From positions 1-59,264 of IMG/VR virus record IMGVR_UViG_3300036832_000931: DNA of 59,264 nucleotides; one strand, 5' to 3'. The notes below the pieces were generated by a model, which saw only the letters and a list, made by a program, of their open reading frames with translations, was not told the origin of the DNA and searched no databases. Shown here in pieces: positions 3,447 through 23,409 of this stretch. The stretch is from a virus. The stretch's first letter is position 1. Every line of letters starts with the position of its first letter. The position numbers and the translations under genes were made by a program.

Positions 3447-3887
3447 AGGGCTGGATATGCGTCGGGAATTGTTTGGCGCGTAGGGCTGAGGGAATGTACG
3501 CATATGCATATGCTCTCGAGAGGAAGGGCTAGGGGTGGGGTGGCTTAAGGTATCCCTACAAGCCTATAGGTACCATTCCCTGACTGACTAGGACTAGCAG
3601 ACTGAGACCTGACCGTTAGCTAGGCTAGCACAGGGTCAAGCTAACGTTTGCGGGGCTTTCGTGGCTTGTGTGCTTGGCTTGTGTCATCAGTCAGGTCAGC
3701 TAGGCAATCAATCAGATAGGTCTCAGGGAAGTGTCTACTCGAGTAGGTCCACAAAGCTAACCGGCTCCGTCTCAGGTTGATCCAACCTTGCCCTTGCCAA
3801 AAGCGCGCGCGATTGAGCCCACAGTTTCGTACGGATAAGAATTTCGCCACATATCAATATTAAACAGCAAGTTCGGTTTTCCTAATC

Positions 3888-3954
3888 TAACCTGACCCAC
3901 AACCTCGCGACATTTTTTGGTGCAAAAAAACGCGAGTGGGTTGACTGCAGGTTA
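3888..3954. repeat. Long interrupted inverted repeat
   Basis: Four paired segments nest: TAACCTG (3888-3894) with CAGGTTA (3948-3954), ACCCA (3895-3899) with TGGGT (3937-3941), CTCGCG (3904-3909) with CGCGAG (3931-3936), and an inner T6/A6 pair. Small bulges separate them. It sits just upstream of the first rightward gene. Confidence 0.7.
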
Positions 3955-3980
3955 ATTATAGGCTTCCCTTATACTTTACT

Positions 3981-19783: not shown

Positions 19784-20617
19784 ATGAGCACTGAAACAAC
19801 AACAGACGAAGCGAAAGCATTAGCGGTCGAGATACAACCAGCGCGCAGCGGGTTTGAGAAAGCACTGCTCACTCTTAATGACCTGAACGGGGCAGAACTG
19901 GCCCAAGCTGGTCGTCTCGGTGAGCGGCGTATCGAGTGGGTCAAGCTGATCGACCAGCAGGCGGCCGAGTGGTTCAAGAAGGTGGGTGAACGTCTGGCTC
20001 CGGGTAAGAAAAAAGCCTACGACGCATGGAAGGCGTGGACCCGTCTTGAGGACGAGATGACCGCGCCGGCTAGGACCATCCGTGAGCGGGCGCGTCCTAT
20101 AATTGGTCAGTATCAGCTGGAGCTGACCCGTCAATCCGAGGCTCAGGCAGCACAGTTACGCGAGGAACAGCGCAAAGCTGATGAGGAGCAGCGGCGGGAT
20201 CATGAGGAGGAAGCGGCACGCATCCGCGCTGAGGCTGAGAGGCTCGATGCTCAAGGCGACACGGCGGCGGCTGAGGAAAAGCTGCTCGAGGCTGAGTACG
20301 TGGAGACCCAGCCGATCGTACCGGTGGCGGTTACTGCGGAACAGGTCGCCCGTCCGAAGGTCGACGCTGGCCGCCTCGTTTACTGGCGTCGTCTAGTCAA
20401 CGCTCATCTTTTCTTGCACTGGGTGACGAAAGAACATCCTCGCCTACCGGTGCGTAACGGCCCCGACGACAGCAATGAGCATGTCATCGAGGGGTATGGG
20501 TGGACGCTGACTCTGAAGTTCGATGCGAGCTGGAAGAGCAAAGACGGGAGCGTCGATATACCGGGCATCGCGGTGACGCGAGGCTATGAAGCTCGCAATG
20601 CTCGGGGCAGAAAATAG
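19784..20617 (+). CDS. Coiled-coil protein of the recombination operon (277 aa)
   Basis: ATG 19784 follows AGAGGGGGTGCT. Residues 110-175 form a long charged coiled coil (EAQAAQLREEQRKADEEQRR), followed by a compact C-terminal part with many aromatic residues. Similar proteins sit beside RecT genes in other phages; no activity known to me. The N-terminus (STETTTD) shares GAGCACTGAAAC with repeat 3' ends, possibly by chance. Confidence 0.65.
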   Translation: MSTETTTDEAKALAVEIQPARSGFEKALLTLNDLNGAELAQAGRLGERRIEWVKLIDQQAAEWFKKVGERLAPGKKKAYDAWKAWTRLEDEMTAPARTIRERARPIIGQYQLELTRQSEAQAAQLREEQRKADEEQRRDHEEEAARIRAEAERLDAQGDTAAAEEKLLEAEYVETQPIVPVAVTAEQVARPKVDAGRLVYWRRLVNAHLFLHWVTKEHPRLPVRNGPDDSNEHVIEGYGWTLTLKFDASWKSKDGSVDIPGIAVTRGYEARNARGRK

Positions 20618-20626
20618 GGGATAGAG

Positions 20627-20866
20627 ATGAAAATCCCATCAGAGGAACTCGATATTATCGCGACCACCGTCGCTGAGATCGAACAGATCCTAAAAGGAAA
20701 AGGGTCCGCTATGCAGGGGGCAATCCTGGGCGATCTGCTCGCGACATGGCTGCACGGTCATAGCGACGTAGATGATGATCCAGTCAAGACAGCAGAAGTG
20801 CGCGATGAGCTACTCGCGGTACATATCAATTATGTCAAGCTGCTGGTGGCAGCGAACGACCTATAG
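20627..20866 (+). CDS. Small hypothetical protein (79 aa)
   Basis: ATG 20627 follows GGGGATAGAG. Helical and acidic, no family recognised. Its TAG shares the G with the first base of the repeat at 20866-20890, the same abutment seen at 17176, 36814 and others. Confidence 0.6.
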   Translation: MKIPSEELDIIATTVAEIEQILKGKGSAMQGAILGDLLATWLHGHSDVDDDPVKTAEVRDELLAVHINYVKLLVAANDL

Positions 20867-20890
20867 GTTCCTGCGTGTGAGCAGTGAAAC
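20866..20890 (+). repeat. Hairpin repeat between small gene and methyltransferase
   Basis: CTGC/GCAG copy starting on the last base of a TAG stop and ending 16 nt before the methyltransferase ATG. Confidence 0.9.
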
Positions 20891-20906
20891 CAGAGCATGT
20901 CGGTTC

Positions 20907-21821
20907 ATGAGCATCAAAGTCTTCTACAACGACAACGACCTGTATTGCGTGGAATGGTTAAACAATCTAATCGAGGCAGGGCACCTGCCGGAAGGAACCG
21001 TTGATGGCCGCAGCATCGAAGACCTTGAGCCCGCCGACCTTGACAGATATACGCACGCGCATTTCTTCTGCGGACTTGGAGGCTGGCCCTACGCCCTCGA
21101 GCTTACCGGGTGGCCACCAGACCAGCCTGTTTGGACCGGCAGCCCACCCTGTCAGCCCTTCAGCGCCGCCGGCAAAAGACAAGGAGACGCTGATAGCCGG
21201 GACTTGTGGTCGGCTTGGTTCCGGCTCATCCAAGAGTGTCGCCCTGCAACAATCTTTGGTGAACAGGTTGATGGAGCGATTGGGTGGGGATGGTGGGATC
21301 GAGTATGCGCTGACCTGGAAGGCGAAGATTACGCCTGCGCGGCGGCGCTATTGCCAGCTTGCAGCGTCGGCGCGCCCCATCTCCGCAACCGGCTTTTCTG
21401 GGTCGCAACCCTTGACGGGCTGGCCGACGCCAAACCCCCCGACCGGTGGTCGTTCAATCTTAAACATCGACCAGATGGACCCGACGGGCCGGACGGTGGA
21501 CGGCCGGAAACATACGGCGAGTCTGGAACACGCGGTGAAATTCACGGGCTGGGCAACACCGACCTCGCGCGACCACAAGGACGGAGCCTCGGACCTGAGC
21601 AACGTTCCGATCAACTGTCTGCTTGGGCGGCAAGCACGCCTATCTGGTGCAGTGATGGAAAGTGGCGGCGGGTACCGCTTGAACCACGGTTTCAGCCTTT
21701 GGCTGATGGGCTACCCGGTCGACGAGTGGCTGTCCTGCGTGCCGCGGGGAACGCCATCGTCTCCCAAGTCGCGGCAGAGTTCGTAAGAGCATTTCTCGAG
21801 GTTCCTGCATGTGAGCAGTGA
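20907..21821 (+). CDS. dcm: DNA cytosine-C5 methyltransferase (304 aa)
   Basis: ATG 20907. Motif I FFCGLGG (53-59), motif IV GSPPCQPFS with catalytic C82, motif VI as GEQV (E119, usually ENV), motif VIII HLRNR, and a C-terminal AAGNAI (motif X) identify a C5-methyltransferase. The recognition domain (about 175-265) is short, Gly/Pro/Asp-rich and overlaps a second gene in another frame. Methylates cytosine, probably to protect phage DNA from restriction or to regulate it. The C-terminus VPACEQ and the TGA are encoded by the repeat at 21800-21824. Confidence 0.88.
   Translation: MSIKVFYNDNDLYCVEWLNNLIEAGHLPEGTVDGRSIEDLEPADLDRYTHAHFFCGLGGWPYALELTGWPPDQPVWTGSPPCQPFSAAGKRQGDADSRDLWSAWFRLIQECRPATIFGEQVDGAIGWGWWDRVCADLEGEDYACAAALLPACSVGAPHLRNRLFWVATLDGLADAKPPDRWSFNLKHRPDGPDGPDGGRPETYGESGTRGEIHGLGNTDLARPQGRSLGPEQRSDQLSAWAASTPIWCSDGKWRRVPLEPRFQPLADGLPGRRVAVLRAAGNAIVSQVAAEFVRAFLEVPACEQ
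21001..21786 (+). CDS. Overlapping-frame phage protein inside the methyltransferase gene
   Basis: In a different frame, fully inside the methyltransferase, runs a 261-codon frame with features of a known phage protein family: EYALTWKAKITPARRRYCQL, then GWPTP, LLGRQARLSG, YRLNHGFSLWLMGYP and TPSSPKSRQSS. I recall this pattern (YALTWK...LNP-x-x-S-R-W-L-M-G-Y-P-x-E-W...T-P-S-S-R-K-S) as a recurrent phage protein, often labelled methyltransferase. The true start is unclear; the recognisable part begins near 21180. No strong ribosome site is seen, so frameshifting or coupled initiation is possible. Confidence 0.6.
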   Translation: MMAAASKTLSPPTLTDIRTRISSADLEAGPTPSSLPGGHQTSLFGPAAHPVSPSAPPAKDKETLIAGTCGRLGSGSSKSVALQQSLVNRLMERLGGDGGIEYALTWKAKITPARRRYCQLAASARPISATGFSGSQPLTGWPTPNPPTGGRSILNIDQMDPTGRTVDGRKHTASLEHAVKFTGWATPTSRDHKDGASDLSNVPINCLLGRQARLSGAVMESGGGYRLNHGFSLWLMGYPVDEWLSCVPRGTPSSPKSRQSS

Positions 21822-21907
21822 AACATCAAGCTGAGCACTGCGCCTTAAGGTTTTTTTCTTAAAGCGCATGTACAATCGAACAGGTTCCTGCGTACCAGCA
21901 GTGAAAC
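21800..21907 (+). repeat. Two hairpin repeats after the methyltransferase
   Basis: Copies at 21800-21824 (loop ATGTGA, supplies the methyltransferase stop) and 21883-21907. Between them, 21839-21866 holds a different 10-bp hairpin, GCGCCTTAAG/CTTAAAGCGC, with T7 in its loop. Confidence 0.88.
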
Positions 21908-21926
21908 GTTATGCAGTTGCTCTATC

Positions 21927-22385
21927 GTGAAAAAGCTAGTCCTGACTCCCGCTAGGGGGTTCGTGCGAACATCCAAAAAAGGGGTGTGGCAACCCAAAGA
22001 GTCCACCAGTCAATCCCAAGTGTTCGACTGGGCTAGGTGGGCACGGGGGCGTTATCCCGAACTCGATCTGATGTTCGCCGTCCCGAACGGATTTCCCCTC
22101 CACGGTCCTCAGCGTTTTGCCGTGGTCAATTATATGAAAGCGCAGGGGCTCAAGAACGGCGTGCCCGACATCAGCTTGCCCATCGCCCGCGGCGGATTCT
22201 TCCACAAATGGATCGAGATGAAGGTCAAAGGCGGGCGACTGAGTGAGGCACAGGAGGTCTGGATCCAAGCGCTCCGTAACGCCGGCGGGGACGTCTCAAT
22301 TTGCGAGTCGTTCGAGGAAGCGGTGGCTGATCTGGAAGGCTATCTTCAGTTGCCGAACACGCTCTCGTTCAGTGAAACGAATTAG
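21927..22385 (+). CDS. VRR-NUC domain endonuclease (152 aa)
   Basis: The VRR-NUC fold (a PD-(D/E)XK branch) is clear: VPNGF, then NGVPDISLPIARGGF with the metal-binding Asp, WIEMKVKGGRLSEAQ (E-x-K) and a C-terminal helix. Related phage proteins act on DNA junctions or flaps. GTG 21927 is used here; GTG 21963, behind AGGGGG, is a better-supported alternative. The end (FSETN) reads through a deleted repeat remnant (GTTC joined to AGTGAAAC). Overlaps the converging gene by 17 nt. Confidence 0.85.
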   Translation: MKKLVLTPARGFVRTSKKGVWQPKESTSQSQVFDWARWARGRYPELDLMFAVPNGFPLHGPQRFAVVNYMKAQGLKNGVPDISLPIARGGFFHKWIEMKVKGGRLSEAQEVWIQALRNAGGDVSICESFEEAVADLEGYLQLPNTLSFSETN

Positions 22386-23409
22386 TCATCGCTTCGAGAC
22401 GCTCGCGCGCAGAAGCCTGCAGCGTGAGCATATTAATCTCCATTGGATCGGTGATTGGCAGTTGCTCCGGATTAACTGGAAGCTGCGACTTCGGCATCTT
22501 GGCCTCGGTGGCAGCATCCCAGCGGTTCTGCTCGTTAAGCAGCGCGAGTTCCCACCACTGCGCGAGTTTGTGCGCGATCGGAGGGAACAGGCACGAACTT
22601 TTACCCGCGAGCACATGATCCTCCCACTCGGTCTTGCTCGCGTTAATGCTGTAATAAGCGCACATTGCTGAGAATGAGTGGAATTGCCAGCCATACAAGA
22701 TGACCGGCAATTCGATACTCCTCCGCTGTTGGGCGCGCTGGCGATGGTGGCGAGCGTAGGCTCTGGCGTGTGCGAGGGCACCTTCTAGGCCTTCCTGTTT
22801 GATCCACCGCCTCACGACTCCCGGCGCTAGCCGGTAACGCCGACGCAGTTCACGAACAAACGCCACGAGACTGGGATAGGTGGTCCCATCGACAAGGATC
22901 CGGCTCCGTTCGACATCGCGCCGGAGCTGTTCGACATTATTGCCATTGGCACATAGTCGCGAATCAATCGTAGAGACTGGAAGACCGAGCCGAGGGGACA
23001 ATTCCCGAGCCAGCGCGCTGCGACTTAGTTCTCGTCCTTCGAACATGATGACGCGTGTCGGAGAAACACCGCGGCGGCGCGATGTCCGGTGCGTTTGACA
23101 CCACCGCAGCGCAGCATCGCCATCGCCATCATGATTTCGAATAATCGCTTTGAGCCATTTGACGCTGCGACCGGTAGATTGCGCTAATTCCTGAGCGGCC
23201 ACTTGCAAGGAAGGATATTCTCGACCGTTATACGTAATAGTACGTCGGTGGCGTTTCGGTTGCTGTTCGGACACGGCGTCACCGTCACCGTTTTGTGCCT
23301 TGAGAAGCTGATGGAGCCGCCGGAGACTCAGCCCAGTCTCCGGCTCCAGAAGCTTGGCGACGGCTTGAAGGGAGGTATATTGCTGACCCTTGTATGTTGC
23401 GCCGCGCAT
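22369..23409 (-). CDS. Modular repeat protein, probably DNA-binding (346 aa)
   Basis: At least three to four modules of about 45-60 residues share the plan Y-x-G-R-E-Y-x-S-L-x-x-x-A-x-x-L...G-x-S-x-x-x-L: YKGQQYTSLQAVAKLLEPET, YNGREYPSLQVAAQELAQST, a diverged FEGRELSRSALARELSPRLG, and VDGTTYPSLVAFVRELRRRY. The design resembles NUMOD-type DNA-binding repeats attached to homing nucleases, but no nuclease motif is visible. ATG 23409 directly follows the stop of the upstream gene (TAAATG). Confidence 0.6.
   Translation of the reverse strand: MRGATYKGQQYTSLQAVAKLLEPETGLSLRRLHQLLKAQNGDGDAVSEQQPKRHRRTITYNGREYPSLQVAAQELAQSTGRSVKWLKAIIRNHDGDGDAALRWCQTHRTSRRRGVSPTRVIMFEGRELSRSALARELSPRLGLPVSTIDSRLCANGNNVEQLRRDVERSRILVDGTTYPSLVAFVRELRRRYRLAPGVVRRWIKQEGLEGALAHARAYARHHRQRAQQRRSIELPVILYGWQFHSFSAMCAYYSINASKTEWEDHVLAGKSSCLFPPIAHKLAQWWELALLNEQNRWDAATEAKMPKSQLPVNPEQLPITDPMEINMLTLQASARERLEAMTNSFH

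Follow-up and report, generated by a model that had tools for sequence, protein, structure and literature searches.

The two genes of the EcoHK31I methyltransferase reportedly overlap in different reading frames. M.EcoHK31I carries motifs I-VIII and X on its large subunit and motif IX on the smaller subunit, and the recognition domain has been assigned to the large subunit, according to the passages on this enzyme in PMC3404938. The corresponding passages on M.AquI place the catalytic and the recognition/motif IX parts on separate chains, with the beta chain also carrying motif X (PMC3404938). EcoHK31I is a precedent for the arrangement described below; two-subunit methyltransferases are already known, and certain phage records list both members of the overlapping pair.

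The locus studied here lies on a virus contig of 59,264 bases, the whole of which is referred to as the window. Positions 20907-21821 of the + strand encode alpha, a 304-residue protein with the features of a cytosine-5 DNA methyltransferase catalytic subunit (PF00145, 2.1e-18; phrog_363, 1.9e-70; AF2 model). The GC content of alpha is 61%. On the same strand, the +1 frame is stop-free between 20971 and 21786 (271 codons), with the first TTG at 21001 and the first ATG at 21004. Reading from this ATG gives beta (21004-21786, 260 residues), a putative recognition and motif IX subunit identified by its phrog_1008 match, its conserved open frame and the selection acting on it. Beta matched phrog_1008 (3.5e-16, in two stretches) as well as phrog_31772 (2.2e-10), and in the own-genome search the phrog_1008 profile match spanned positions 17-174 and 259-282, covering the recognition and motif IX parts. 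The original prediction had proposed a second frame of about 200 codons lying over the recognition domain of the methyltransferase. The frame indeed covers that domain, but at approximately 260 codons it is longer than proposed and also overlies nearly all the rest of alpha (residues ~33 to ~293), such that beta is situated almost wholly within alpha. The peptides quoted in that prediction were all found in the +1 frame: YALTWK (21304-21321), GWPTP (21418-21432), LNHGFSLWLMGYP (21679-21717), LLGRQ and TPSSPKS.

An Rfam search of window positions 20500-22400 gave no match. A 25-nt repeat, GGTTCCTGCGTNNNAGCAGTGAAAC, with a CTGC/GCAG hairpin and a variable loop, occurs at 17 places between 3035 and 59204 of the window when up to 3 mismatches are allowed (0 expected). 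The copies are mostly intergenic and occur on both strands (e.g. 20866-20890, 21800-21824 and 21883-21907), with one copy ahead of the methyltransferase start and one containing its stop codon. Degenerate neighbours of the repeat show paired changes in the stem.

The AF2 model of alpha has a mean pLDDT of 75.5 and contains a confidently folded catalytic domain, with M.HhaI as the best structural match (Z 14.9, rmsd 3.2, 178 aligned residues). Motif I (AHFFCGLGGW, 21057-21086) gave a weak local alignment to HhaI and motif IV, with the catalytic Cys (SPPCQPFS, 21141-21164), was likewise aligned to HhaI; both are conserved in an alignment of 79 chosen sequences that includes the window. Alignment to HhaI also identified motif VI as GEQV (21258-21269; ENV in HhaI), and motifs VIII (RNRLFWVA, 21384-21407) and X (AGNAIVSQVA, 21744-21773) were recognised by alignment. 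Motifs II and III (YNDND...VDGRSI, 20925-21017), corresponding to AF2 strands E5-8 and E30-33, are found ahead of motif I. Alpha does not follow the linear order I, II, III, IV, and residue 3 of the alpha model aligns to HhaI residue 34. The segment 20922-21086 thus represents a local permutation, with motifs II and III before motif I. In the account of natural permuted methyltransferases given in PMC5944983, the circular permutations all occur in the variable region, and the arrangement seen in alpha is not among the natural permutations listed there. No motif IX-like segment was present in the alignment of alpha sequences. Residues 184-233 (21456-21605), which occupy the place of the recognition domain in one-chain enzymes, are predicted to be disordered (pLDDT <50); the selection ratio for the recognition segment of alpha is 0.89. 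In one-chain enzymes a single polypeptide holds both the recognition domain and motif IX, an organisation to which alpha does not conform.

We examined the conservation of the +1 frame in a set of 90 loci. Of these, 80 are viral-contig relatives for which alpha alone provided the search profile; the others are the window and nine loci from earlier steps. Alpha identity to the window's alpha ranged from 39 to 50%. Stops were counted over the region corresponding to window alpha residues 72-281, and expected values were derived from synonymous codon shuffles within each gene. It was found that the +1 frame is stop-free across the overlap in 88 of the 90 loci, compared with 4.9 expected, and only 2 stops were seen (one each in L024 and L087) versus 239.6 expected. 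The +2 frame of the same loci contains 849 stops. The third base of four-fold degenerate codons varies almost freely ahead of the overlap (mean 1.85 bits versus 1.94 expected) and is strongly fixed in the last part of the overlap (1.04 bits versus 1.93 expected). Synonymous sites of the methyltransferase are therefore not free to vary in the overlap, with the GEQV valine encoded by GTT in 90/90 loci, A266 by GCT in 77/77, P260 by CCC in 77/78 and G268 by GGG in 86/87.

Searches with a beta profile added the best 80 of 175 relatives in bacterial genomes and the best 80 of at least 561 in viral contigs. All 250 loci of this stage have the same +1 relation of both frames; in 6 loci a frame is split or doubled. 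No beta without alpha was found in the 250 loci, 160 of which had been found by the beta profile; as these are the best 80 per scan, weaker standalone copies are possible. Addition of two further sets and of phage and plasmid records gave 361 loci, 359 of which (320 unique alpha DNAs) share the +1 relation; the exceptions are L160, with a stop in alpha, and L258 (Gordonia phage Float294), with side-by-side genes. As loci were picked via conserved alpha or beta peptides, very divergent or separated forms are under-sampled in these counts. The +1 frame is also open at 47-50% GC, in Lacticaseibacillus, Paenibacillus and Acinetobacter phages. N15 gp58 DNA gave no match when compared with E. coli genomes. 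The overlap of two coding frames in the alpha gene is real and conserved.

Individual loci depart from the common arrangement. In addition to the single beta stops in L024 and L087 and the alpha stop in L160, the frame is split in L150, L170 and L186. In PMG1 (L006, 1355-2246), a frameshift close to residue 30 splits the alpha frame and leaves beta intact; this could be natural or a sequencing error. Viral contig L033 contains tandem copies of the overlapping pair (1495-2490 and 3590-3980), the second being incomplete at the end of the fetched stretch. In Klebsiella phage KpV2811 (L005, 1450-2808) and viral contigs L185 and L189, the beta frame continues stop-free into an endonuclease VII (PF02945) gene, suggesting a possible beta-nuclease fusion.

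Selection on each frame was estimated with an OLGenie-like count (own script) on 54 independent pairs of 72-98.5% identity, taken from 224 with each locus used once. The beta NN/NS ratio is 1.15 (1.01-1.31) before the overlap, i.e. no purifying selection. Within the overlap it falls to 0.65 (0.58-0.73) for the N-terminal part of beta; the YALTWK, recognition and motif IX parts have ratios of 0.47 (0.37-0.55), 0.50 (0.43-0.57) and 0.43 (0.36-0.50), respectively. When only the closest 19 pairs are used, the ratio of the N-terminal part is 0.66 (0.29-1.14) and not significant. For alpha, the NN/SN ratios of the pre-overlap, N-terminal, YALTWK, recognition and motif IX segments are 0.19, 0.21, 0.42, 0.89 (0.83-0.95) and 0.36, respectively. 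The nearly neutral stretch of alpha thus coincides precisely with the recognition part of beta. A dN/dS-type comparison had been proposed as a check on the original prediction, and the frame-resolved ratios demonstrate purifying selection on beta inside the overlap. Together with the open frame in 88 of 90 relatives, this bears out the suggestion that the overlap is real and old, with both ends of both proteins conserved, as opposed to an alternative frame that is not maintained among relatives.

The only well-predicted part of beta in AF2 is a helix and β-hairpin containing YALTWK (21229-21372). This is followed by two modules, GWPTP (21418-21432) and GWATP (21547-21561), identified from the sequence and from an alignment of 83 chosen sequences including the window. 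Individual beta proteins (320 unique sequences) carry between 0 and 5 GWxTP-like modules, with 2 or 3 the commonest, and this variation would fit variable or multiple target recognition. The segment LNHGFSLWLMGYPVDEW (21679-21729) corresponds to a motif IX-like LNxxxSxWLMGYP (LNPxHSRWLMGYP) and stands at the motif IX position, as in profile alignments with one-chain and side-by-side relatives it pairs with their in-frame motif IX region. The one-chain relatives from mycobacteriophages ShiLan and Estave1 and Gordonia phage Rabbitrun match phrog_363 over most of their length, and phrog_1008 matches in frame in the C-terminal part of the same chain (ShiLan gp70, 2e-61; Estave1, 9e-50; Rabbitrun, 3e-32), after motif VIII. 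LPTPxAxD-like repeats occur in this part of ShiLan, and an EWMMGWPAGW-like motif and GNGVVPQQA (motif X) close the C-terminal parts. Profile comparison of the C-terminal parts of window-type beta with the one-chain and side-by-side sequences gave an E value of 5.7e-9, and comparison of the same C-terminal parts with beta parts from phages of Lacticaseibacillus, Paenibacillus, Mycobacterium and Acinetobacter gave 4.2e-14. As judged by these profile matches, beta is homologous to the target-recognition and motif IX half of single-chain cytosine methyltransferases. The second protein had originally been attributed to a separate phage family; the in-frame phrog_1008 matches rule out an unrelated family and point to the other half of the enzyme. 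A PDB profile search with beta returned no chain up to E 10, and Pfam gave no methyltransferase match for beta or for the C-terminal halves of the one-chain relatives.

A putative Shine-Dalgarno site, GGAAGGAA (20990-20997), precedes the beta ATG (21004) by 6 nt, and the duplex energy of the stretch upstream of this ATG is -5.7 kcal/mol. Following omission of the 25 of 320 unique loci that have no recognised motif I pattern, an in-frame beta ATG is present around motif I in 289/295 loci. The alpha Asp located 13 residues before the motif I His is encoded by GAT in 192/236 cases where G follows, compared with 44% elsewhere (p 6e-30). As GAT followed by G creates an ATG in the frame of beta, the beta ATG at this conserved Asp codon is selected for. 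Two other candidate ATG positions show little or no GAT bias (p 0.37 and 0.03), and the window's ATG 21004, behind GGAAGGAA, is one of these two.

It could be argued that the second frame is a passive by-product of high GC content and conserved methyltransferase residues. This is not without basis, given the 61% GC of alpha and the weak N-terminal +1-frame matches seen in one-chain relatives. We trained a beta profile on 82 loci and scored 145 others, each with 40 synonymous shuffles; the rest of the 320 unique loci lie in the neighbourhood of the training set. Shuffled alpha genes still reached a median of 81 bits, while the real genes had a median of 255 bits, and all 145 test loci exceeded every one of their own shuffles. 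The window's beta scored 187 bits versus at most 90 bits in 40 shuffles. The similarity of beta sequences is thus partly forced by alpha, and mostly not. Negative controls without a deep overlap (ShiLan, Estave1, Rabbitrun, Zaka and Float294) behaved as the null, with 5/5 inside the shuffle range and no +1 signal. Among distant overlap-type genes, ten exceed all 200 shuffles; Bacteroides BS-TP4 (L368) is borderline, with 1.5% of shuffles reaching the real score. In conjunction with the near absence of stops (2 instead of 239.6), a beta ratio below one only inside the overlap and a frame that stays open at 47-50% GC, this leaves passive conservation an extremely improbable cause of the frame, ruled out by the stop, selection and shuffle tests, although it does account for the 81-bit background. 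We also considered whether the open +1 stretches over motifs IV-VIII of ShiLan, Estave1 and Rabbitrun are a relic of beta; their scores fall within the shuffle range, and we do not take them for a relic.

Two further explanations were weighed. A programmed +1 frameshift from alpha could yield an alpha-beta fusion and no separate subunit, which would suit the invariably +1 relation and would put the catalytic and recognition halves in one chain. However, an in-frame ATG near motif I is almost universal, with one such position under selection, and beta is constrained from near its start. Furthermore, motif X is conserved in alpha's own frame downstream of the recognition region, so that a full chain would need two shifts; we regard a frameshift fusion as unlikely. 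Beta could also be a genuine protein that acts independently, e.g. by regulating or inhibiting the methyltransferase, instead of serving as its recognition subunit; this would agree with its absence from Pfam and with the poor AF2 model of beta alone (pLDDT 61.7, pTM 0.27). This poor prediction is also consistent with an obligate subunit and proves nothing. The homology of beta to the in-frame recognition/motif IX half of one-chain enzymes argues against an independent role, as do the lack of motif IX and the disordered recognition region in alpha, and the lack of any beta without alpha in the 250 loci (best 80 per beta scan). An independent role consequently appears highly unlikely, somewhat more so than the fusion.

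The two overlapping genes very probably encode a heterodimeric cytosine-5 DNA methyltransferase with target recognition residing in beta. The computations show a second frame that is conserved and selected, a beta that is a homologue of the recognition/motif IX half and an alpha without that half. Alpha, read from 20907, would supply the SAM-binding and catalytic domain. Beta is likely to begin inside alpha by internal initiation at ATG 21004, in the +1 frame and with its own ribosome-binding site, and would supply target recognition (the YALTWK and GWxTP modules) as well as motif IX. Alpha and beta are expected to assemble into one enzyme for which both are needed, and this enzyme may methylate phage DNA, and perhaps also that of the host, at a specific sequence, e.g. 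as protection against restriction. More broadly, we consider it probable, with less confidence than the heterodimer itself, that this is an ancient obligate overlap in which two frames encode the catalytic and DNA-recognition halves of one enzyme, with hosts among the Proteobacteria, Firmicutes, Actinobacteria, Cyanobacteria and probably Bacteroidota. Alpha opposite the recognition domain would then be a nearly neutral filler, allowing recognition modules to vary without disturbing catalysis, and the single-chain and side-by-side relatives would represent ancestral or derived states of this arrangement.

Gene overlaps in DNA viruses are as a rule very short, with a median of 15.6 nt given in a survey of virus reference genomes (value as stated in PMC8903798), in contrast to the ~780 nt shared here by two products that are both under selection and have roles suggested by homology. 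As the two frames appear to correspond to two halves of one enzyme, constraint can be measured for each frame in every segment, and a mutation that is silent in one frame offers a clean test of the other. If the proposed heterodimer is correct, database entries that describe one frame as 'DNA methyltransferase' or 'hypothetical protein' represent only one half of the enzyme, and alpha would probably appear inactive when expressed on its own. Only the beta frame is annotated in PMG1, Cr-LKS3 and Bipolar, and only the alpha frame in PHB09. In Mycobacterium phage Bipolar (L259, 1933-2484), gp069, annotated as a DNA methyltransferase, corresponds to the beta frame, and the overlapping catalytic frame is unannotated.

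A search of the open-access literature, with subscription papers mostly outside its reach, did not turn up any account that treats this phage overlap as a single enzyme. Kagunavirus K1ind2 has the same overlapping pair with both members annotated ('putative C-specific methylase' and 'putative Mte8-like protein'), with no relation stated between them. An out-of-frame product within a phage methylase gene has a parallel in the ShiLan domain, an HNH endonuclease found out of frame inside methylase gp65 (PMC11855218); this is a homing insertion in another gene and does not provide an enzyme subunit. The one-chain actinophage enzymes (ShiLan gp70, Estave1 and Rabbitrun) combine the same halves, phrog_363 and phrog_1008, but in one frame and with an unconserved +1 frame. 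Gordonia phage Float294 (gp62/gp61) and Zaka (gp91/gp90, 179 nt overlap) are AquI-like, with two genes and motif X in the second. The window's pair resembles M.AquI in the split between catalytic and recognition/motif IX parts, and differs in that motif X (GNAIVSQVA) is located in alpha. In this last respect it is closer to M.EcoHK31I, a two-polypeptide cytosine-5 enzyme (YGGCCR), since motifs I-VIII and X occur in alpha and motif IX only in beta, as compared by description. Unlike in M.EcoHK31I, recognition appears to reside in beta, as suggested by the selection ratios (0.89 for alpha versus 0.50 for beta), the predicted disorder of alpha in AF2 and homology. Moreover, while M.EcoHK31I is one restriction-modification enzyme, the overlapping pair described here belongs to a wide phage and prophage family.
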